DNA from: Phreatobacter stygius
Lineage (GTDB): Bacteria; Pseudomonadota; Alphaproteobacteria; Rhizobiales; Phreatobacteraceae
Reading direction: 5' to 3'
Length of the DNA stretch: 64,000 nucleotides
Assembly (NCBI RefSeq): GCF_005144885.1
Contig: NZ_CP039690.1
Span: forward strand, 7,118,873-7,182,872
The notes under the pieces were generated by a model. The model saw nothing but the letters and a program-made list of their open reading frames with translations, did no database searches and was not told the origin of the DNA. The translations under genes and the position numbers were made by a program. Position 1 is the first letter of the stretch, and every line of letters begins with the position of its first letter. This document shows positions 18,001 to 31,007 of the stretch, piece after piece.

Positions 18001-18621
<621 letters not shown>

Positions 18622-18624
18622 CGG

Positions 18625-19317
18625 TCAGCTCCTGAACAGCCTGGTATATTGGGTTTCGTGGCGCATCGAGGCGATATCAGAGCGTAGCGCATGGCCGCCG
18701 ATATCATCGAGCGCCGTCTGGGCGGCCAGCCCGGCAGTCGCCTCGACCAGCGGCTCGAGCGCCGCCAGCACGCGCTGGCCGTCGGTCTGGCCGAGCGGCA
18801 CCAGGCGCACCGCCGCCGAGACGAGGTTTGCCGTCACCGCATGCAGGAAGGCATGCAGCGCAACCGTCTCGTCGATGCCATGGGCCGCGGTCGCGCAGCC
18901 GGCCGCAACCGGATAGGCAACCGCGTCGCCCCAGGCCGCGCGGATCAGCGCCAGGCCGTCGGCCGGCCAGGCCGCCTCGGCCGCCAGCATGAAGGCATTG
19001 CCCTGCGCCGTCGTTTCCAGCCGGCGCTCCCTGGACGGCTGAAACGCCAGCGCCAGTTCGGCAACCTCGGCCAGGGCTTGTCGGTCGCCGGCAAGCGTCG
19101 CCCGATGGGCATGGACGAAGAAGGTCGCGTCGGCGAGACCGGATCCGGCGCCGATGACCAGGTCGAGCCAATCGACCAGGGTCGCCGCGCTGGTGATGTC
19201 GCCGGTTTCCACCGCCCATTCCAGCCCATGGGAATAGCTGAAGGCGCCGACCGGGTAGGACGGCGACATCCAGGCGAGCAGTCGGTAGAGCGCCGCCGGA
19301 CGGAACGGCTCAGCCAT
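18625..19317 (-). CDS. ureF: urease accessory protein UreF
   Basis: A 230-residue all-helical urease accessory protein that links UreD-bound apo-urease to UreG and acts as a gate for nickel insertion. Typical motifs are [19 protein letters not shown] (N-terminus, residues 12-30), [10 protein letters not shown] and the terminal region [14 protein letters not shown] longer reading frame extends upstream through the UreE histidine tail, but the ATG at 19317 gives the conserved N-terminus. It overlaps the end of ureE by eight bases, suggesting coupled translation. Confidence 0.94.
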
Positions 19318-20056
19318 GCTTGTGGTCGTGGCCGTGACGATGTCCATGATCATGCTTGTGATCTCCGTGATCACGCTGGTGATCATGGTCATGGCCATGC
19401 TCGTGGTCATGCTTGTGGTCGTGGCCGCAGCCGCAGGCGTCGTCATGCCCGTGCCCGGCGCTCTGCACGCCGAGGACATCCCGCGCCTTGCTGGCGTGAT
19501 CCTTGGCCGCATGATCGTGGACATGCTTGTGGCCATCGGAATGCTTGTGGCCATCGGCATGCTTGTGGCCATGGTCGTGCTTGTGGCCATGGTCGTGATC
19601 ATGGTCGTGGCCGGTCACGGTGCCGTGGCCATAGGCGCCGCCTTCGGGATCGAACGGCGCCTCGATCGCCACGGCCTTGGCGCCCAGCCCCTTGACCATG
19701 TCCTCGATGACATGGTCGCGACGGATGCGCAGCTTGGTGCCGAGGATCTGGGTCGGCAGATGGCGGTTGCCGAGGTGCCAGGCGATCCTGACCATGTGGT
19801 TCGGGTCCTTGGTCCGGATCTCCAGGAGCGGCTCGGCGGCCGCGACGACCAGCACGATCCGACCGTCTTCGAGCTCCAGCCCGCAGTCCGAGACGAGCGG
19901 CACCGCTTCGGCGAGATCGAGCAGGAATTCGGTGCCCTCGACCCCTTCCATCGCCATGCGGCGGCGATGCCGGTCGTCATAATCGAGCACGACGCGGTCG
20001 ATCACCGCGCTATCGGGGAAGGAATGGGGCAAGCGGACGGCGATGGCGCGGATCAT
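19310..20056 (-). CDS. ureE: urease accessory nickel-binding protein UreE with very long His-rich tail
   Basis: A 248-residue nickel metallochaperone. Residues 1-140 are the usual UreE body (peptide-binding domain, then [15 protein letters not shown], whose His residues bind metal at the dimer interface). Residues 144-248 are a 105-residue tail with 36 His in alternating His-Asp, His-Gly and His-Lys pairs, in two blocks split by a short non-His spacer (about 189-205), and with a CGCG motif near residue 215. Typical UreE tails are far shorter. I placed the start at 20056. The tail would store or buffer nickel. Standing first in ureEFG, 148 bases after mvaB, it may use its own promoter or read-through from the block upstream. 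Confidence 0.93.
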
Positions 20057-20164
20057 GGGGTTTCCCGCAAATGGCAAAGGTTCGACGACGACGAGGGTTC
20101 GACAACGAATAGAGCCGCCGCGACGTTCTGGCTACACGTCATCCGCCGCTGCGCCGCTGGCCTC

Positions 20165-20187
20165 TCGCTTCGCCGCGGCCGAAGCGA
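20165..20187 (-). terminator. hairpin after mvaB, possible transcript end
   Basis: A perfect 8-bp stem (TCGCTTCG/CGAAGCGA) with a GC-rich 7-base loop lies 18-40 bases past the HMG-CoA lyase stop. There is no T-tract, so it may only pause or stabilise the end. It is the only strong dyad in the gap before ureE. Confidence 0.4.
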
Positions 20188-20204
20188 CGACGCCCCGGCC
20201 TCGA

Positions 20205-21065
20205 TCACCCGCCGGCCCGGCCGAGCTCCGCCCGCACCCAGCGGCCGGTCTCGGCCAGCCTGGCGAGATCGATGCCGGTGGACAGGCCCTGCCCTTCGAA
20301 GAAGCCGACCAGCGCCTCGGTCGCGACATTGCCGGCGGCACCCGGCGCATAAGGACAGCCGCCGAGCCCGCCGACCGAACCGTCGAACACCGTGACCCCC
20401 AGCGCATGGGCCGCGGCGACATTGGCGAGCGCCCGGCCCGCCGTGTCGTGGAAATGGCCGGCAAGGCGGCCGACAGGCACCCGGGCGGCCACCGCCTCGA
20501 CCATGGCGGCGGTCGCCTCGGGCGTGCCCCGGCCGATCGTGTCGCCGAGCGAGATCTCGACACAGCCAAGCTCATCGAGCCGGGCTGCGACCTCGGCCAC
20601 GGCCTGGGCCGGGATCGCGCCCTCATAGGGGCAGTCGAGCACGCAGGAGACATAACCGCGCACCGGAATGCCCGCCTGCCGCGCCAGCGCCATGACGGGC
20701 AAGAAACGCTCGAGGCTCTCGGCGATCGAGCAATTGGTGTTTTTCCGGGCAAAGCTCTCGGAGGCCGCGGTGAACACGGCGATCTCGTCGGCGCCGGCTG
20801 CGATCGCCGCTGCCGCCCCCTTCTCATTGGGCGCCAGCACCGAATAGATCAGGCCGGCACGCCGCGGCACGCCGGCCATGACCGCCGCGTGGTCGGCCAT
20901 TTGCGGCACCCATTTCGGCGAAACGAACGCCGTCGCCTCGATGCGGCTGAAGCCGGCATCGGCGAGCCGCCGGATCAGCGCCAGCTTGATGTCCGTGGCG
21001 ACCACACCCTTTTCATTCTGCAGGCCGTCGCGCGGGCCGACTTCGACAAGGGTGATGTCGGGCAT
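20205..21065 (-). CDS. mvaB: hydroxymethylglutaryl-CoA lyase
   Basis: A 286-residue TIM-barrel lyase that splits HMG-CoA into acetoacetate and acetyl-CoA. Catalytic features of the family are present: Arg12-Asp13 in EVGPRDGLQNE, His204 and His206 in AGHFHDTAGRA, and the HMG-CoA lyase signature with Cys237 in GGLGGCPYAPGAAGNVATE. The length fits short bacterial enzymes (P. mevalonii MvaB is about 300). A 313-base repeat gap separates it from livF, but it is on the same strand and in the same functional block as mvaA. It could alternatively serve leucine breakdown, yet no other leucine-pathway gene is in the window. Confidence 0.93.
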   Translation of the reverse strand: MPDITLVEVGPRDGLQNEKGVVATDIKLALIRRLADAGFSRIEATAFVSPKWVPQMADHAAVMAGVPRRAGLIYSVLAPNEKGAAAAIAAGADEIAVFTAASESFARKNTNCSIAESLERFLPVMALARQAGIPVRGYVSCVLDCPYEGAIPAQAVAEVAARLDELGCVEISLGDTIGRGTPEATAAMVEAVAARVPVGRLAGHFHDTAGRALANVAAAHALGVTVFDGSVGGLGGCPYAPGAAGNVATEALVGFFEGQGLSTGIDLARLAETGRWVRAELGRAGG

Positions 21066-21081
21066 GGTTCAGGCTCCGTCG

Positions 21082-21378
21082 ATTGGCGAGTGGCTGAGAG
21101 CGCGTGGCGAATGGGGCATGATGCGACAGGTTTGCGCGCAAACCCTCTCCCGCTTGCGGGAGAGGGTGGCGCCGTCAGGCGCCGGGTGAGGGTTCGAATC
21201 TAGATCCTGCGCATCAATTCGACCCGACATGCGCAGTTAGCATTGACGCAACCACCCTCACCCGGCCGCTCCGCGGCCACCCTCTCCCGCGAAGGCGCGG
21301 GCGAGGGTTTGCGCGCTCGTCGCATCATGCCCCATTCGCCATTCGCCATTCGCCATTCGCCATTCGCCACTCGCCCTT
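21082..21378. repeat. intergenic paired-repeat element, copy B
   Basis: The gap between livF and mvaB is a roughly 290-bp element closed by a 22-bp perfect inverted repeat (21106-21127 with 21319-21340). Inside lie two inverted copies of a GC-rich hairpin motif (CCCTCTCCCG...GAGAGGGTG, then CGGGTGAGGG). Much of it matches copy A near 9.5 kb. No gene is visible. It probably arose by spread of a repeat into the operon's intergenic region and does not show a transposase. Confidence 0.7.
21333..21374. repeat. tandem 7-bp repeat, six units
   Basis: Five exact units CATTCGC followed by one CACTCGC, head to tail. They form the outer edge of repeat copy B and end five bases before the livF stop codon. 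Such a heptamer array can gain or lose units by slippage. The end of copy A near 9.57 kb holds degenerate related units. Confidence 0.8.
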
Positions 21379-22080
21379 TCACGCCCCCAGATAAGCCGCC
21401 TGCACCCGCGGGTCGGCGAGCAGCTCGGCGCCGGTGCCCTCGAGCGTCAGGCGGCCAGTTTCGATGACATAGGCGCGGTCGGCAATGGCCAGCGCCTGGT
21501 TGGCCATTTGCTCGACCAGCAGGATGGTCATGCCCTGGGCCTTCAGCCGCCCGATCACCGCGAAGACCTCACGCACCACCAGGGGGGCGAGGCCGAGCGA
21601 GGGTTCGTCCAGCAGCAGCAGCTTCGGCCGGCCCATCAGGGCGCGGCCGATCGCCAGCATCTGCTGCTCGCCGCCGCTCATCGTGCCGGCGAGCTGGTGC
21701 TGGCGCTCGCCGAGACGCGGGAAGACCGCGAAGATGCCGTCGATATCGGCCTCCAACTCACGGTCCTTGCGGGTGAAGGCGCCGAGCAGCAGGTTGTCGC
21801 GCACCGACTGGTCGCCGAACACCATGCGGCCTTCCGGCGCATGGCCAATGCCGAGGCGGACGCAGTGATGCGGGCGCACGCCCCTCAGCGAGCGGCCGTC
21901 GAGGCTGATATCGCCCGAGGTCACCGGCGCGAGGCCGGAAATCGCCCGCATGGCGGTGGTCTTGCCCGCGCCATTGGCGCCGATCAGCGCGACCACCTCG
22001 CCCGTGCCGACATGAAGCGAAATGCCGCGCAGCGCCTCGATCGCGCCGTAACGCACCGACAGGTTGGAAATCGTCAGCAT
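21379..22080 (-). CDS. livF: branched-chain amino acid-type ABC transporter ATPase LivF
   Basis: A 233-residue ATPase of the LivF type, working at the inner face of the membrane. The Walker A motif is GANGAGKTTAMRAISG (residues 34-49), the signature is SGGEQQMLAIGRALM and Walker B is LLLLDEPSLGLAPLVV. It begins three bases after the fused livM-livG gene, so the genes are coupled. In this locus it would power uptake of the substrate bound by LivK, for which mevalonate is the favoured guess. Confidence 0.92.
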   Translation of the reverse strand: MLTISNLSVRYGAIEALRGISLHVGTGEVVALIGANGAGKTTAMRAISGLAPVTSGDISLDGRSLRGVRPHHCVRLGIGHAPEGRMVFGDQSVRDNLLLGAFTRKDRELEADIDGIFAVFPRLGERQHQLAGTMSGGEQQMLAIGRALMGRPKLLLLDEPSLGLAPLVVREVFAVIGRLKAQGMTILLVEQMANQALAIADRAYVIETGRLTLEGTGAELLADPRVQAAYLGA

Positions 22081-22083
22081 CGC

Positions 22084-23883
22084 TCAGCTCGCTCCCGCAA
22101 GTTCGGGCACGGCGGCCTCGGTGCCGAGATAGGCGGCGATCACGCGTGGGTCGCGCTTGATCGCGGCAGGCGTGCCCTCGGCGATCTTGGCGCCGTAGTC
22201 GAGCACGATGACGTGGTCGGACACCTCCATGACCAGATCCATATGATGCTCGATCAGGAGAATGGTGACGCCGGTTGCCTGGATCCGCTTGATGACGGCA
22301 CCGAGCTCGTGGGTTTCTTGCGGATTGAGGCCGGCGGCCGGTTCGTCGAGCAGCAGCAGCTTCGGCCACGAGGCCAGCGCGCGGGCCATTTCGAGCCGGC
22401 GCTGCAGGCCATAGGGCAGGCTTTGCGCCGGGCTTTCGGCATGGTCGCCGAGATCCAGGCTGTCGAGCAGCGCCATGGCTTCGGTGCGGGCGCGCGCCTC
22501 GGCCTGGGCCTGGCCCGGCGTGCCGACAAGGCTTGCGAAGAAACCGGCCTTGATATGCAGGTGGGCCCCGACCAGCACGTTGTCGATCACCGACATGTCG
22601 GCGAAGAGGCGCAGGTTCTGGAAGGTGCGGGCAATGCCCAGCGCCGCCACCGCATGGGCCGGCGCCCGGGTGATGTCGCGGCCACGGAACAGGATCGTCC
22701 CCTCGTCGGGCGCGACATGGCCGGACAGCAGGTTCAACAGCGTGGTCTTGCCGGCGCCGTTCGGGCCGATCAGCGCATGCACCCGCCCCGCCGTGACGGT
22801 GAGACTGACATGATCGGTCGGCACCACGCCGCCGTAACGCTTGACCAGGCCGCGGGTCTCGATCAGCGGACCGGTTTCAAAAGGCTCCGGCCGGGCGACA
22901 GGTGTCGCCGTCGCGGCAAGGATCGGCTCCGCCGGCTTCTTGGCCGTCCAGCCCAGCCGGTCGGTCAGGCCCTGCAGCGCGCCGGCGAGGCCCTTGGGCA
23001 TGGCATAGAGCGCGAACAGCAGCAGCCCGCCATAAGCGAAATGCTGCAAGGCGGGCCAGCGGGCGAGCCAGGCATCGATCAGGGTGAGCGTGACGGCGCC
23101 GAGCAGCGGTCCGTAGATATGGCCGGAACCGCCGAAGATCACCACCACCAGCAGGAAGACCGACAGGTTGAACGAGATGAAGTCCGAATTGAAATATTGG
23201 TTCTCCTGGGCGACCAGGGCACCGGCCAGCGCGCAGGTGACCGCGCTGATGACGAAGGCCAGCGTCTTGGCAGCGCGCACCGAAATGCCGACGGAAGCCG
23301 CCGCCGGCTCGGCGAGCTGCACCGCCAGGAAGGCCCGGCCGAAACGGCCCGCCAGCAGCGAGCGCAGCATGAGATGGGTCAGCACGCCGAGCAGGGCGAC
23401 GAACCAGACCCAGTCCTGGCTGGCGAAGCTCGAACCGAACAGGCTCGGCGGCGTGATGCCATAGACGCCGGCCTGGCCCTTGAACACATCGGTCCATTCG
23501 GTGGCGATCTTCTCCATGACGATGCCGAAGCCAATGGTGACCATGGCAAGGCTCGGACCGGCGACCCGCACCGCAGGAGCCGCGATGACCAGGCCGAACA
23601 GGCCGCCCATGGCGCCGGCGAAAGCCAGCGCCACCCAGGGGTTCAGCCCCCATTCGGTGCCGCCGAGCGCCGCCGCATAGGCGCCGACCGCGAACAGGCC
23701 GGCATGGCCGAGCGATTTCTGGCCGGCATAACCGACCAGCACGTTGAGGCCGGCGGCGGCGAGATAGTTCACCCCGATCATGAACAGGATGTGCAGGTAG
23801 AAGCCGTTGAGGCCGCTGCGGGAGGCAGCATAGGCAAGCGCCACGATCAGCGCGCCGAGGCCAAAGGGAGCAAGGCGCGGCAT
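22084..23883 (-). CDS. livMG: fused ABC transporter permease-ATPase (LivM-LivG)
   Basis: A 599-residue single protein joining two normally separate subunits. Residues 1-310 are a LivM permease with about nine membrane helices (motifs VLVGYAGQKSLGHAGLFAVG and FGGSGHIYGPLLGA). A short Pro/Ala-rich linker (about 315-340) leads to a LivG ATPase with Walker A GPNGAGKT at 373-380, the signature segment LPYGLQRRLEMARALA and Walker B LLLLDEPAAGLNP. No stop codon separates the parts. The start at 23883 overlaps the livH stop by one base. Such fusions are known in some proteobacterial Liv systems and enforce 1:1 assembly. Confidence 0.92.
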   Translation of the reverse strand: MPRLAPFGLGALIVALAYAASRSGLNGFYLHILFMIGVNYLAAAGLNVLVGYAGQKSLGHAGLFAVGAYAAALGGTEWGLNPWVALAFAGAMGGLFGLVIAAPAVRVAGPSLAMVTIGFGIVMEKIATEWTDVFKGQAGVYGITPPSLFGSSFASQDWVWFVALLGVLTHLMLRSLLAGRFGRAFLAVQLAEPAAASVGISVRAAKTLAFVISAVTCALAGALVAQENQYFNSDFISFNLSVFLLVVVIFGGSGHIYGPLLGAVTLTLIDAWLARWPALQHFAYGGLLLFALYAMPKGLAGALQGLTDRLGWTAKKPAEPILAATATPVARPEPFETGPLIETRGLVKRYGGVVPTDHVSLTVTAGRVHALIGPNGAGKTTLLNLLSGHVAPDEGTILFRGRDITRAPAHAVAALGIARTFQNLRLFADMSVIDNVLVGAHLHIKAGFFASLVGTPGQAQAEARARTEAMALLDSLDLGDHAESPAQSLPYGLQRRLEMARALASWPKLLLLDEPAAGLNPQETHELGAVIKRIQATGVTILLIEHHMDLVMEVSDHVIVLDYGAKIAEGTPAAIKRDPRVIAAYLGTEAAVPELAGAS

Positions 23884-24800
23884 CAGAGCTTCTCCACCGT
23901 GCGGGCGCCCATCAGGCCGCTCGGGCGGAACACCAGGACCAGGATGATCAGGCCGAAAATGGCGATCTCGCGCAGTTCGGCGCGCCAGAGCCCGACCATG
24001 GCCTCGACCACGCCGAGCAGGAAACCGCCGAGCACGCAGCCGCGCGGATTGGTCAGGCCGCCGACGATGGCGGCCGAAAAGGCCTTGAGCGCAATGCCAA
24101 GCCCCATGAACACCGAGGCCGTGACGATCGGCGCGATCAGCATGCCGGAAAGGCCCGCGAGCGCCGAGCTCAGGACGAAGGCGATGATGACGATCCATTC
24201 GACATTGATGCCGACCAGGGCTGCGGCCTGCGGATTGAAGGCGACCGCGCGCAGGGCCTTGCCGTAGCGGGTGCGGTTCAAGAAGAGATCGAGCGCCACC
24301 ATGACCACGATGGCGGTGCCGGCGATCAGGATCTCCTGCGGGCGGATGCCGACACCGGCGATGCGGATGACGCCATTGCCGAGGGGCGACGGCACGGCGA
24401 TCGAGGCCGGGCCCCAAAACGCCAGCGCGGCGTTCTGGATGATGATGCCGAAGCCGATGGTGGAGAGCACCCAGTTGAGCCCGGCCGAGCCGACAAAGGG
24501 TTTCACCGCGCCGTAATAGAGGGCGACGCCGAGCGCGCCGACCAGCGCCATAGCGAGGAGCGAAGCGGCGGAATAACCGATGATCGACATTTCGGCGGGC
24601 GCGAGATTGCCGAAATGTGGCTTGCCGGCAGTGACCAGCAGGATGGAAATGCCGGCGAGGCTGCCGGCGACCAGGAATTCGCCCTGGCCGAAATTGAAGG
24701 TCTTGGTGGTGGAATAGGTGATGTTGAAACCGAGCGCGACCAGGCCGTAGATGGCGCCGAGCGCCAGGCCGCTGGCCAGCGCCTGCAGGATTGCCGTCAT
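23883..24800 (-). CDS. livH: branched-chain amino acid-type ABC transporter permease LivH
   Basis: A 305-residue inner-membrane permease of the LivH type with about eight helices. Motifs include ALGAIYGLVALGFNITY at the N-terminus, FLNRTRYGKALRAVAFNP in the coupling loop that contacts the ATPase, and IVGGLTNPRGCVLGGFLLG near the C-terminus. It is first of the permease-ATPase run and its stop codon overlaps the start of livMG. A 334-base repeat gap lies between it and livK. Confidence 0.92.
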   Translation of the reverse strand: MTAILQALASGLALGAIYGLVALGFNITYSTTKTFNFGQGEFLVAGSLAGISILLVTAGKPHFGNLAPAEMSIIGYSAASLLAMALVGALGVALYYGAVKPFVGSAGLNWVLSTIGFGIIIQNAALAFWGPASIAVPSPLGNGVIRIAGVGIRPQEILIAGTAIVVMVALDLFLNRTRYGKALRAVAFNPQAAALVGINVEWIVIIAFVLSSALAGLSGMLIAPIVTASVFMGLGIALKAFSAAIVGGLTNPRGCVLGGFLLGVVEAMVGLWRAELREIAIFGLIILVLVFRPSGLMGARTVEKL

Positions 24801-24904
24801 GCGTGCCCTCCCCTCGGGGTGGAAATTGGTTTGGCTCGGTGGTTGATCGCGGCGTCGTTCATGATCGAGGTCTTACCGATGCTTCTCGCCTGGCGCACCG
24901 CATG

Positions 24905-25134
24905 AAAGCACCGCACGCAAGAACCCTCTCGCATCGGGCGAGGGTGGCAGCGCATGGCAAGTGCGAACGCATCTTGCGTTCGCTCGATTCTATGAGGCGC
25001 CGGGTGAGGCGCGTGAGCGCGCGGAACGGGCGCCAATGCTCGGGTTGCAGGCGCCCTCATCCTGAAATGGACGCCCCCTCACCCGCCGGCTCCGCCGGCA
25101 CCCTCTCCCTCTGGGAGAGTGTTGGTTCGCCGCC
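24905..25134. repeat. intergenic repeat element, copy C
   Basis: The 334-base gap between livK and livH holds a hairpin-rich element. Positions 24941-25008 match the reverse complement of 59825-59892 (core GCGAACGCATCTTGCGTTCGC is itself a hairpin). A second part near 25075-25125 carries the CCCCTCACCCGCCGGC...CCCTCTCCCTCTGGGAGAG motif also seen in copies A and B. No gene is visible in the gap; the first 100 bases after livH hold no clear signal. Confidence 0.65.
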
Positions 25135-26355
25135 TCAGCGCTTGAAATCCGCCGCGGTCAGCGCCCGGGTCACCGCGTCGTCGAGCTTGACCACCTTGCC
25201 GTCGCGCCAGACCGCCAGGTTGAAGTCGGCAACCCCGAGCGCCTCGTGATTGGTCTTCGAGAACGGCCGCTCATAGGTCTTGATGACACCTTCGACCTTG
25301 CCGAGGTTTTCCAGGGCTTCCTGCACCTTCGGGCCCTCGGTCGAATTGGCCTGGCGGAGCGCCGCGGCGATCAGCATGACCGCGTCATAACCCTGAGCCG
25401 CCGAGACGAAGGCCGGCATGTTCGGATGTTTGGCGACCAGGCGGGTGTTCAACGCCGCCGCCTTCGGGTTGGAATTCTCGGTGGTGGAGGCGGCGAACAC
25501 GATGCGCTCGGCGAGTTTCAGCCCGGCAATGTTCAGGAGCGGCGTGTTGATGCTGCTCCAGGTGCCGAGCAGGCCGGGGAAATAGTCCATCTTCTCCATG
25601 CTCTTGAGAATATGGGCATTGGCATCGCCGAGCGATCCGGCGATCACCATGTCGGCGCCGGCATCGCGCAGCTTGGCGAGCTGCGAGGTCATGTCGGTGT
25701 CGCGCGGGCCGAATTTTTCGACCGCCACCGGCCGGATATTGTGCAGGGCCAGGATCTCGGTGAGGTCCTTGGTCGCCGCCTGGCCGTAACCCGTGGTGTC
25801 GGCGATGATGCCGACCTTGCCGGATTTCGAGCCGCGCACGGCATAGGCGGCCAGCAGCGCCAGCTGTTCGCGATCGACCATCGAGACGCGGAAAATATAG
25901 TTCCTCGGCTGCGAGGCGTAACGCGTGGTGATCTCGGTGGCGGTCGCCACATGCGAGATGACCGGCGTCGTCTTCTGCTGCGGCAGGTGCAGCCAGGCCA
26001 GCGCATTGCCCGAATTGGTCGGGCCGACGACGGCCGCGACCTTCTCGTTGTCGATCAGCTCGAGCATGTTCTGGATCGACTTCGGCGGCGCTCCGACATC
26101 GTCCCTGATGACGCCGACGAGCTTGCGGCCCATCACGCCGCCGGCGGCGTTGACGTCCTCGATCGCCGCCTCGAAACCGTAGCGGCCGGAGAGGCCGAGT
26201 TCGGCGGCCCCGGTGGCCGACTGGTCGGCATTATAGCCGATCTTGATGTCGCCCTGGGCTTGCGCCCTCAGCGGTCCCAGGCCGAAGCCGGCGGCAAGCG
26301 CCGCCGCCCCGATCAGGCTGTCGCGGCGGCTCGGTGCAAAACTTTTCTTCATCAT
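25135..26355 (-). CDS. livK: ABC transporter substrate-binding protein, LivK-type
   Basis: A 406-residue periplasmic binding protein of the leucine/isoleucine/valine type I fold. A twin-arginine-like signal (PSRRDSLIGAAALAAGFGLG) ends near residue 40, so Tat export is possible. The mature protein starts with IKIGYNADQSATGAAELG and has family motifs VVGPTNSGNALA and AAQGYDAVMLIAAALRQAN. Despite the family name many members bind other ligands (aromatic acids, amides, hydroxy acids). AAGGAGA before the ATG pair at 26355 supports the start. It lies 61 bases after mvaA, which ties it to HMG-CoA or mevalonate metabolism. Confidence 0.9.
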   Translation of the reverse strand: MMKKSFAPSRRDSLIGAAALAAGFGLGPLRAQAQGDIKIGYNADQSATGAAELGLSGRYGFEAAIEDVNAAGGVMGRKLVGVIRDDVGAPPKSIQNMLELIDNEKVAAVVGPTNSGNALAWLHLPQQKTTPVISHVATATEITTRYASQPRNYIFRVSMVDREQLALLAAYAVRGSKSGKVGIIADTTGYGQAATKDLTEILALHNIRPVAVEKFGPRDTDMTSQLAKLRDAGADMVIAGSLGDANAHILKSMEKMDYFPGLLGTWSSINTPLLNIAGLKLAERIVFAASTTENSNPKAAALNTRLVAKHPNMPAFVSAAQGYDAVMLIAAALRQANSTEGPKVQEALENLGKVEGVIKTYERPFSKTNHEALGVADFNLAVWRDGKVVKLDDAVTRALTAADFKR

Positions 26356-26416
26356 GTCTCTCCTTGGCTCCCGTTTCATTGATGGCCGATGGCTTCGGCT
26401 CTGGTCTTGGCAAGGC

Positions 26417-27718
26417 TCACCCGCGCAAGCCGGCGAGCAATTCCTTGGCGCGATCGACCCTGACGTCATGGGTCCTGGCCAGTTCAGCCGCGACCCGGTC
26501 GACCTCCGCGCCGCTGGCGCCGGCGACGATCGCGATGTTGCGGGCATGCAGCGCCATGTGGCCGCGCTGAATGCCTTCGGTGGCGAGCGCGCGGATCGCC
26601 GCCATGTTCTGGGCGAGCCCCACCGCCACCGTCACCTCGGCGAGCTCCTGGGCGGTCTCGACCTTCAGGATGCGCAAGGCGAGCTGAGCCAGCGGATGGG
26701 TTTTGGTGGCGCCGCCGACCAGGCCGAGCGCCATGGGCATTTCCAGCGTGCCGACGAGCCGGCCCGCCTGGTCGACCTCCCAGGTGGTGAGCGAGGTATA
26801 AGACCCCTTGCGGCAGGCCCAGACATGGGCACCCGCCTCGATCGCCCGCCAGTCATTGCCGGTCGCGACCACCACCGGATCGATGCCGTTCATGATGCCC
26901 TTGTTATGGGTCGCGGCGCGGTAGGGGTCGACGGCGGCAAGAGCATAGGCGTCCAGCATGCCCTCGATCATCCGTTCGCCTGAATAGGCCGACGTCGCCA
27001 GCGCTTCCGGCGGAACCGCGACGCGCGCACGCGCCAGGCGCAGGTCGGCGAAATTCGAGAGGATGCGCAGGCGCACCTCGCCGCCGGTGACCTGTTCGAC
27101 GATCGGCGCCACCGTCTCGGCCATGGTGTTGACCGTGTTGGCGCCCATGGCGTCGCGCACATCGACCAAAAGATGCAGCACGACCATGGCCCCGCGCGGC
27201 GTCTCGGGGAAGACATGCACCTCGATGTCGCGGCAGCCGCCACCGAGCCCGATCAGCACCTTGTCCCTGGCATTGGCGGCTTCGATGATGCGGTCGCGGG
27301 CGCCGAGCAATCTGAGGCGGGCGCCATGCGGGTCGGTCAGGCCGATGACCTGCACCTGGGCGCGCATCATCGGCGCCGAGGACGAGGTTTCGAAGCCGCC
27401 ATGGGGCCGCACGATGCGCGCCATATAGGAGGCGGCGGCCACCACCGAGGGCTCCTCCACCACCATGGGGATCAGATAGTCGCGGCCGTTGACGGTGAAA
27501 TTGGTGGCGATGCCGAAGGGCAGCTCGAAGGTGCCGACGACATTTTCGATCATGCCGTTGGCGCGCTCCACCGGCAGCGCGCCGGGAGACGCGAGCAGCG
27601 CCAGGTCGGCCTGGCTGAGTTCGGCCGCCTCGACCAGGCCCGCCAGCCGGTCGGCCGGCGAGAGATTGCGATAATTTTCCAGGCGCGAGCTGAGAGCCCG
27701 CGCAGCGTCCGCTGCCAC
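26417..27718 (-). CDS. mvaA: hydroxymethylglutaryl-CoA reductase, class II, degradative
   Basis: A 433-residue class II HMG-CoA reductase, closely similar over its whole length to the P. mevalonii enzyme as I recall it. Catalytic residues are all present: Glu89 ([13 protein letters not shown]), Lys273 ([11 protein letters not shown]), Asp289 ([12 protein letters not shown]) and His387 ([11 protein letters not shown]). The dinucleotide motif [14 protein letters not shown] has the Asp seen in the NAD-using degradative enzyme. The reaction in vivo is probably oxidation of mevalonate with CoA to HMG-CoA. It starts at a GTG with AGGAGG nine bases upstream. Divergent from the MocR gene and leading livK, it heads the mevalonate block. 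Confidence 0.95.
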
Positions 27719-27867
27719 CTTGACGTCCTCCTGCCAATATCAAGGGTTGGTCGACGAACCTCCCTTGACAGATCTTGACCGGGACAATCAAGCTGCTGTG
27801 CCCTTTCATCAAGGTACAGTTTGGCGCGACTTCCCAGGCCTGTACCAGTAAAAATTGGGGAACAGTG
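27719..27867. promoter_or_regulatory. divergent mvaA/mocR control region with candidate operator repeats
   Basis: This 149-base region separates mvaA from the regulator and must hold both promoters. Three related heptamers stand out: CTGTGCC at 27796-27802, GGTACAG at 27813-27819 and CTGTACC at 27840-27846. The last two form a perfect inverted repeat with a 20-base spacer, and the first and last a near direct repeat 44 bases apart. Direct or mixed repeats are the usual form of MocR-family operators. There are also five copies of CTTGA or its complement between 27739 and 27815. Their role is inferred. Confidence 0.5.
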
Positions 27868-29291
27868 ATGCCCTCGCCCGCTCCACCGAGAGGCAAGGCC
27901 GAAACCATCGTCAGCCAGATCTCGAGGGCTATCGAGGCCGGCCTGATGAAACCCGGCGACCGGCTGCCGTCGATCCGGGCAGCGGCCGAGCATTACGACG
28001 TCGCCAAGAACACCGTTGTCGAAGTCTATGACCGGCTGGTTGCGCTCGGCCTGGTGGAAGCCCGGCGCGGCTCGGGCTTTTTCGTCGGCGCAGTCAGGCG
28101 GAGCTCGCCGGAGATCCAGGCGCCGCATGTCGCCGAGGCGCTCGACATTCTCGGCCTGTTGCGCGAGCAGCTCGACCAGCATTTCGAAGTGCGCATCGGC
28201 GACGGCCGGCCGCCGGCCTCGTGGATGGAAGGCTCGGAGCTCGGCCGCCACATGCGGCTGACCGGCGCGCGCGGCGGCGAACCGATCGAGCACGGTTATG
28301 GCAGCGCGCTCGGCTACGGCCCCTTGCGCGAGCGCCTGTCGCTGATGCTGGCGGAACGTTCGATTCCGGTCGGGCCGGACCAGGTCCTGCTCACCCACGG
28401 CGCCAATCATGCGCTCGACCTGATCATTCGCCATGCGCTGGAGCCGGGCGACGCCGCCATGGTCGACGATCCCGGCTATTATCCGCTGTTCGCCAAGCTG
28501 AAACTCGCCAAGGTCGAGATGTTGGGGGTCAGGCGCCTCGCCGACGGGCCGGATCTCGACGATTTCGCCGACAAGGCGGCGAGCGGCCGGGCCAAGATCT
28601 TCTTCACCCAGAGCCTGGCGCATAACCCGACCGGCAGTTCCATGTCGGTGGCGGTGGCCCATCGGCTCTTGCAAATCGCTGCACGGCACGGCGTGACCAT
28701 TGTCGAGGACGATCCTTTCGCCGATGTCCTGGCGCCGACGCTCTACCGGCTCGCCTCGCTCGACCAGTTGGAGAGCGTCATCTATCTCGGCACTTTCGCC
28801 AAGACGCTGTCGGCGAGCCTGCGCGTCGGTTATATCGCCGCCTCGCCCCGCACCGTCACGGTGTTGCGCGACATGAAGATGCTGACCGTGGTCAACTCGT
28901 CGGGATATGTCGAGCGCCTGGTGCACGACCTGATGATCTCAGGCCATTACCGCCATCACCTGAAGCGCCTGAAGACCCGCATCGAACAGGCGACCGAAGT
29001 GGCGGTCGGCGAACTCGGCCGCTTCGGCCTGGAGATCTTTTCAGCCCCCACCGGCGGCTATTACCTGTGGTGCCGCATTCCCGCCGGCCGCGACGACGTG
29101 ACCTTTTCCAAGGCCGCGGCGGCCGAAGGCATCTTCATCGCGCCCGGCACCATGTTTTCACCCGACCGCTCGGCCCATTCCGGCCATATGCGCATCAATG
29201 TCGCTTATGCCGACGATCCGAGATTCCTCGGGTTCCTGACCAAGGCCGGCCGGCCCGGCGACGTTTCCCTCGCGGCTCCGGTCCATAGCCT

Positions 29292-29307
<16 letters not shown>
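27868..29307 (+). CDS. MocR-family transcriptional regulator (GntR HTH plus aminotransferase-like domain)
   Basis: A 479-residue regulator. Residues 13-75 are a GntR winged helix-turn-helix ([20 protein letters not shown]). The rest is a fold-type-I aminotransferase-like domain with HNPTG at 252-256 and the pyridoxal phosphate-binding Lys312 in [16 protein letters not shown]. MocR proteins use this domain as a PLP-dependent sensor. It is divergent from mvaA and is the natural candidate regulator of the mvaA-livKHMGF-mvaB block. Its 3' end overlaps the ureC coding end by 16 bases, convergently. I chose the ATG at 27868; the frame is open further upstream but that part overlaps the operator region. 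Confidence 0.88.

Positions 29308-31007
<1,700 letters not shown>

Follow-up and report, generated by a model that had tools for sequence, protein, structure and literature searches.

A block of genes at positions 20205-29307 of the 64,000-nucleotide stretch of the Phreatobacter stygius genome analysed here (contig NZ_CP039690.1, positions 7,118,873 to 7,182,872; hereafter the window) is very probably a self-contained mevalonate utilisation unit. It comprises a class II 3-hydroxy-3-methylglutaryl-coenzyme A (HMG-CoA) reductase of the degradative type (HMGR, gene mvaA), an HMG-CoA lyase (HMGL, gene mvaB), a Liv-type ABC importer and a divergently transcribed regulator of the MocR type. Mevalonate breakdown and the mvaAB operon of Pseudomonas mevalonii have long been known; what is new relative to this pathway is the conserved MocR with its predicted operator beside mvaA, and importers that are exchanged from locus to locus. 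The MocR gene and the operator form the conserved core of the pathway, a view supported by the comparison of loci, and the Liv importer is a minority choice. The analysis was computational throughout, and gene identities, linkage, operator, clades and importer exchange were all derived from sequence. A first-pass annotation had proposed a mevalonate catabolism locus made up of a class II HMGR with its catalytic residues (Glu89, Lys273, Asp289 and His387), an HMGL, a full Liv-type ABC transporter between the two and a divergent MocR gene; all these genes are intact reading frames, their identities held up under model searches, with LivM and LivG found to be fused, and the catabolic assignment gained support from the degradative HMGR model, the presence of dxr and the lack of a mevalonate kinase match.

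The HMGR scores 421 bits with the 'degradative' model TIGR00532 (cut-off 260) and 361 bits with PF00368, of which it is the sole match in the 7.35-Mb genome. The four catalytic residues and D152 are invariant in 25/25 aligned rows (25 of the 30 HMGRs then collected), and D152 appears to fit the place of the aspartate that selects nicotinamide adenine dinucleotide (NAD), to which we match it, as an assumption, through the residue numbering of the P. mevalonii enzyme. Aligned with the sequence common to structures 1qax and 4i4b, the protein reaches 651 bits. The available text of PMC12292504 gives 4i4b as the P. mevalonii HMGR and states the rule that an aspartate selects NAD, and that of PMC13370337 has the P. 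mevalonii HMGR using NADH only. The lyase exceeds the cut-off of NF004283 (426 bits versus 246). A second HMGL gene elsewhere in the genome is also over this cut-off, with 304 bits and thus below the block copy; its neighbours encode an HrpB-like helicase and a PLP-enzyme fold (PLP, pyridoxal 5'-phosphate), and no recognisable leucine operon was seen in the 1.5 kb viewed.

The direction of the pathway was approached through the rest of the genome, in which dxr and one scoB-type CoA-transferase subunit are over cut-off and the mevalonate kinase model TIGR00549 finds no match (the search did not extend to HMG-CoA synthase or to the later mevalonate enzymes). Since dxr is present and mevalonate kinase finds no match, the reductase should run in the breakdown direction, with flux from mevalonate to HMG-CoA; these findings, taken with the degradative HMGR and the lyase, suggest that mevalonate serves as a carbon source, as in P. 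mevalonii. In many Gram-positive bacteria the class II HMGR is biosynthetic, and a reductase that likewise supplied isoprenoid precursors here can hardly be reconciled with the degradative model over its cut-off, dxr and the unmatched kinase, nor with an importer beside HMGR and a lyase in 31 of the 50 MocR loci described below.

TIGR00532 is over cut-off in 8 of the 12 genomes of the genus and in 30 of the 297 of the order, the genome of P. stygius included, or in 31 when the split HMGR of genome G228 is counted. Stretches of up to 20 kb round 29 loci were examined, plus an 80-locus set that holds the best 80 of 588 relatives, chosen by likeness to the HMGRs of the order; the share of MocR in this set is not its share among all HMGR loci. 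A MocR of the same clade as that of the window (the mva clade) is divergent from HMGR in 30 of the 39 proteobacterial loci of the set, at a distance of 50 to 233 bases, in a linkage that spans alpha, beta and gamma lineages and includes Rhizobium, Bosea, Tistrella, Variovorax, Comamonas, Cupriavidus, Caballeronia and Pseudomonas. By tblastn it was found in 0 of the 41 other loci (Chloroflexota, Bacillota and archaea, several with short flanks), where absence means that no match reached both 350 residues and 30% identity. When all 297 genomes of the order were searched, with the top 5 candidates per genome scored, the 23 best MocR matches (374 to 1063 bits) were all located on the HMGR contig, within about 3.3 kb, and the next match below them had 328 bits. 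The mva-clade MocR is thus present in 23 of the 31 HMGR genomes versus 0 of the 266 genomes without the reductase (Fisher p 7e-28, uncorrected for kinship). A tree from a quick search, with L055, L077 and L036 left out, separates 50 mva-locus MocRs from 20 same-order paralogs by a single branch (SH-aLRT 97); its outgroup comes from one order and holds no beta or gamma paralogs.

The intergenic regions between MocR and HMGR, oriented with mvaA, share a first box, GGTACAGT or GGGACAGT, followed by a second, ACTGTACC or ACTGTCCC, and the window copy reads GGTACAGG-N18-ACTGTACC. With up to one mismatch in each box and gaps between 8 and 35 allowed, we found paired boxes in 32 of 46 intergenic regions, 30 of them with a gap of 18 or 19 and the remaining two with gaps of 8 (L071) and 21 (L072); in 200 shuffling rounds the pair turned up in 0.08 of the 46 regions on average and in 2 at most. 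Taken by itself, the second box is present in 44/46 (shuffles: mean 4.3, maximum 10). The boxes were defined from the same 46 sequences, for which the shuffles give no correction, and the 46 count one metagenome-assembled genome (MAG) twice (L055 and L061). A chance motif was ruled out by the shuffles together with the order-wide MocR result. Among the Liv loci, the scored pair occurs in the window and in the MAG (two rows), and L079 and L083 have an exact second box; Bosea lupini has a weaker pair of the same spacing, visible by eye and outside the 32. At locus L032 just the second box is present, and a weak one is seen at L036, where MocR belongs to the paralog clade. In L046-L050 MocR is divergent from TRAP genes and HMGR lies 3 kb away, with the boxes between MocR and DctP; in L046-L049 the pair is within one mismatch per box, and L050 has the second box with more mismatches. 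Boxes at a MocR-DctP promoter 3 kb from HMGR (L046-L049) imply that the boxes follow MocR.

The window operator is the sole exact copy in the window, where one other place matches with 3 mismatches. A search for a wider regulon gave 8 rows at 5 places in the genome with a loose pattern and 41 rows with the reversed pattern, so no further targets are claimed; GTAC in both arms is confined, among the loose-pattern matches, to the mva copy. The paired boxes, with further half-sites nearby, resemble the repeat-type MocR operators described in the part of PMC5320631 available to us. That the MocR regulates some other, amine-related pathway and stands beside mvaA by chance is highly improbable: the described MocR inducers do carry a primary amine (PMC8739950, available text), but HMGR lies beside MocR in 23/23 genomes of the order that have this clade, the linkage is the same in alpha, beta and gamma lineages, and the paired boxes of the shared promoter move with MocR to the TRAP promoter in L046-L049.

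A neighbourhood conserved in no relative would have refuted the first-pass annotation, and this is not what was found. The order MocR<HMGR>LivK>LivH>LivMG>LivF>HMGL> recurs in Bosea lupini (L065) with 63-78% identity per protein (HMGR 78, MocR 63, LivK 77, LivH 77, LivMG 70, LivF 75 and HMGL 73%), and with 86-98% identity in a MAG of the same genus (L061, matching L055). Acidovorax sp. MR-S7 and a proteobacterial MAG (L079 and L083; their LivH proteins are 62-63% identical to that of the window) encode related LivK, LivH, LivMG and LivF (59-66%) upstream of MocR-HMGR, and no lyase was found in the stretch read at these two Liv loci. The first-pass reading is supported, with a change of weight: the Liv importer is the minority choice, TRAP and TctA types being dominant, and MocR with its operator is the conserved core.

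The importer of the window has the broad composition of a HAAT-type ABC importer, with one Peripla_BP_6, two BPD_transp_2 and two ABC ATPase domains, and its LivM-LivG fusion is found as one long frame also in L061, L065, L079 and L083. The NCBIfam Liv models stay below their cut-offs (LivK 99 of 477, LivH 103 of 379, LivG 280 of 362 and LivF 263 of 441 bits). Because the curated Liv and Urt cut-offs were not reached, 'Liv-type' is the right name and 'leucine transporter' would not be. At 50 mva-clade MocR loci (the window not counted; L036 and L055 left out) the importer is of the TctA type in 20, of the TRAP type (DctM) in 19, a Liv set in 4 and a sugar-type ABC system in 2, with none in 5. 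Exactly one of the four types passes the thresholds in 45/50 loci, and two types in 0/50; these thresholds were identities of 45% for DctM, 30% for TctA, 55% for LivK and LivMG and 50% for the sugar-type binding protein, at a distance of 8.5 or 11 kb. More distant transporters are a LivK-like protein (51%) near L062 and L066 and other Liv sets near L065 and L073; at L043, scored as none, there is a sugar-type set, which groups with the one at L038. TRAP and TctA-type importers are secondary carriers. One main importer per locus, of unrelated kinds and with the same reductase and regulator, is what would be expected if all of them carry the same substrate.

LivK proteins from the five mva loci with a Liv set group together and separately from 8 paralogs, with 100/100 support, the paralog search having taken the top 6 candidates per genome. 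In comparison with the leucine-binding protein (2lbp), Asp121 is kept, as are the Ser79 and Thr102 positions in the mva LivKs, and Glu226, which we take to be an ammonium ligand, is replaced by Trp in 13/13 LivK rows. At W18, Y202 and Y276 the five mva LivKs have L, L/I and S/C, and the eight paralogs have S, Q and F. These residues argue against an alpha-amino acid as ligand anywhere in the subfamily and in favour of another ligand for the mva clade, but they do not single out mevalonate. An importer of leucine or branched-chain amino acids, with leucine breakdown leading to HMG-CoA that HMGL cleaves and HMGR as a bystander or mevalonate-making enzyme, is improbable: it would agree with the Liv family and with the kept Ser79, Thr102 and Asp121 positions, but the parts score below the curated Liv cut-offs, Glu226 and the three aromatic residues are replaced, the slot is filled by TRAP or TctA importers in 39/50 loci, and no mevalonate kinase match exists to use the product.

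Mevalonolactone or HMG, rather than free mevalonate, may be what the unit takes up, with a lactonase opening the lactone, an explanation that partly overlaps with mevalonate uptake and that we rate as unlikely. A gene or fusion of the SMP-30 or strictosidine-synthase-like kind (lactonase fold) occurs near 8/50 loci, namely 2 TRAP, 3 TctA, 2 sugar-type ABC and 1 without a recognised importer; however, the four other Liv loci have no such gene, nor is there one among the Pfam-scanned genes of the window. Uptake of HMG would need a CoA-transferase or ligase, and a CaiB-type gene is present in 4/50 loci and absent from the window block. Both sugar-type ABC loci carry a permease-lactonase fusion: in L038 and L064 the importer lies between HMGR and HMGL, and the frame of its permease continues into a strictosidine-synthase/SMP-30-like domain. 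This system is a candidate mevalonolactone importer-lactonase.

The regulator belongs to the MocR/GabR family, with a GntR winged helix-turn-helix domain and a fold-type I aminotransferase domain over their cut-offs and with the PLP-binding lysine and its Asp, Asn and Arg partners in place. K312, presumably the PLP lysine, and N253, D282, R319 and R442, which we match by assumption to aminotransferase residues, are kept in at least 96% of 50 mva MocR rows. Eighteen positions separate the clade from the paralogs, among them N48, Q101, G178, N180, K210, R223, Q248 and E349. The models for the named MocRs PdxR, YczR, MocR, EhuR, GabR and PtsJ all stay below cut-off, the best being PdxR with 231 of 320 bits. 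According to the part of the EnuR paper available (PMC8739950), the MocR switch works only with inducers that carry a primary nitrogen group. None of the three compounds mevalonate, mevalonolactone and HMG has an amine, which leaves three options for sensing: the signal may be some other compound that is an amine, an acid without an amine may be read in the PLP pocket, or PLP may serve simply as a fixed cofactor.

In the mechanism that we propose, LivKHMGF would import mevalonate (or its lactone) at the expense of ATP, the NAD-type HMGR would oxidise mevalonate with CoA to HMG-CoA, and the HMGL would cleave this to acetoacetate and acetyl-CoA; acetoacetate would be activated elsewhere in the genome, which may be served by the scoB-type subunit. 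The divergent MocR would bind the paired GGTACAGT/ACTGTACC boxes between mocR and mvaA and would let the operon respond to the substrate or to an intermediate, which would sit in the PLP pocket with its carboxylate on the conserved Arg442. We infer the ligands, mevalonate as that of LivK and the substrate or an intermediate as the MocR effector, as well as the flux direction, the sign of regulation and the role of Arg442. With somewhat less than even confidence we further propose that the MocR clade is the dedicated regulator of mevalonate catabolism in proteobacteria and senses an amine-free hydroxy acid without an external aldimine, contrary to the accepted MocR switch, and that the Liv clade imports mevalonate, the slot having been filled in four unrelated ways; candidate ligands of such a MocR would be mevalonate, its lactone and the aldehyde intermediate mevaldate.

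Several observations weigh against this reading of the locus. An amine-free substrate does not fit the accepted MocR switch. The mva-clade MocR is lacking in 8/31 HMGR genomes of the order (two of these HMGRs, L057 and L060, lie on contigs of 12 kb or less) and in 9/39 proteobacterial loci, some of which carry a PucR-type regulator with CaiB and enoyl-CoA hydratase genes. The scored pair of boxes is missing in 14/46 intergenic regions, including those of Bosea lupini, L079 and L083, and no sigma-70-like promoter was found in 27600-27950. HMGL accompanies no more than 31/50 mva-clade MocR loci. For the importer, the Glu226 to Trp exchange is not specific to the mva LivKs, being shared by the paralogs; the best solved relatives of LivK reach only about 104 bits, so that sequence does not fix the ligand; and two related LivK importers in the genome adjoin oxidoreductase genes.

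The coordinates of the block and of its surroundings are compiled in Table 1.

Table 1. Genes and predicted operator of the mevalonate block and the adjoining urease genes (positions in the window).
Feature	Position	Strand	Evidence
mvaA, class II degradative-type HMGR	26417..27718	-	TIGR00532, PF00368, catalytic residues
livK, periplasmic binding protein, HAAT/Liv type	25135..26352	-	PF13458 187 bits
livH, permease	23883..24800	-	PF02653 122 bits
livM-livG fusion, permease + ATPase, 599 aa	22084..23883	-	PF02653 + PF00005, single frame
livF, ATPase	21379..22080	-	PF00005 100 bits
mvaB, HMGL	20205..21065	-	NF004283 426 bits
MocR-type regulator, divergent from mvaA	27868..29307	+	PF00392 (GntR HTH) + PF00155 (aminotransferase I/II)
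Predicted MocR operator, mocR-mvaA divergent promoter, GGTACAG-N20-CTGTACC	27813..27847	.	paired boxes
ureC, urease operon context	29292..31007	-	PF01979 + PF00449
ureE, ureF, ureG, context downstream of mvaB	about 18001..20077	-	named from translations, starts uncertain

The mva block, 9.1 kb in length, splits the urease operon between ureC and ureE/F/G. A UreE match lies within 1.2 kb behind ureC in 11/11 other genomes of the genus searched, and none was found within 1.5 kb here; in the nearest relative, G006, the mva block and ureC are on different contigs. The mva unit seems to have moved as a whole. Its GC content (67.3%) and that of the flanks (66.7 and 67.1%) give no foreign mark, and the search for edge repeats (19900-20400 and 27700-27900, each within itself) returned one 15-nt pair, 87% identical, which was taken as chance. 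A urea importer, suggested by urease genes on both sides, was rejected on the scores of UrtA (36 of 493 bits), UrtB (112 of 250), UrtD (189 of 304) and UrtE (214 of 286) and on the UreE match close behind ureC in the 11 other genomes. Lying downstream of mvaB in the same orientation, the ureEFG genes might share its transcript, and the UreE-like frame (19310-20077, minus strand) has a long C-terminal tail rich in His, Asp and Gly, likely a metal-binding stretch.

Further features were noted at related loci. Class II HMGRs 51-61% identical to that of the window are present in Chloroflexota, Bacillota and archaea (L098-L140 except L121 and L128), and neither an mva-clade MocR nor a Liv set was found beside them. 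In L034, L035, L036, L039, L121 and L128 the HMGR is accompanied by a PucR-type regulator (GAF, HTH_30), a CaiB-type CoA-transferase, an enoyl-CoA hydratase and a LivK-like protein, a combination that may lead to HMG-CoA by another route. A GMC oxidoreductase gene lies directly behind livF in Acidovorax (L079, 5189-6826) and in the proteobacterial MAG (L083, 5147-6868). The LivK paralogs L172 and L174 of the P. stygius genome itself adjoin genes for old-yellow-enzyme-like (flavin mononucleotide, FMN), flavin adenine dinucleotide (FAD) oxidoreductase and EthD proteins; the frames behind these paralogs, 614 and 620 aa long, suggest that LivM and LivG are fused there too.

The conserved MocR-mvaA pair and its operator offer a testable regulator, and possibly a mevalonate biosensor for isoprenoid engineering, and the exchange of importers yields testable substrate calls for the Liv, TRAP, TctA-type and sugar-type importers together. 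If the MocR does respond to an amine-free ligand, the rule of primary-amine inducers in this family must widen. The first-pass remark that a branched-chain-type importer and a PLP-type regulator are not well described for this pathway agrees with the open-access literature, in which, among the matches listed, there was no MocR, local substrate-responsive regulator or importer for mevalonate breakdown; neither mevalonate nor HMG-CoA is mentioned in the main text of PMC5320631, a survey of MocR regulons.

The mvaAB operon of P. mevalonii, compared by its description and not by its genome, has the same two enzymes as the block, which adds an ABC importer, a local MocR and an operator. For mvaAB, MvaT is the activator according to the title of a reference cited in PMC3985676, and the available text of that paper calls MvaT H-NS-like. 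With the Liv/HAAT importers the window set shares a binding protein, two permease and two ATPase domains, and it differs from them in the fused LivM-LivG, in scores below the curated cut-offs and in a pocket unlike that of the leucine-binding protein. The TRAP (DctPQM) and TctA-type importers of other mva loci take the same place beside MocR-HMGR as the window Liv set, but belong to unrelated protein families. The window MocR is like GabR, TauR, EnuR/EutR and PdxR in its GntR domain, aminotransferase fold, PLP lysine and divergent gene, and shares with the MocR/GabR regulators a repeat-type operator with TGT; in contrast to the known members, its neighbouring pathway is one without an amine substrate.

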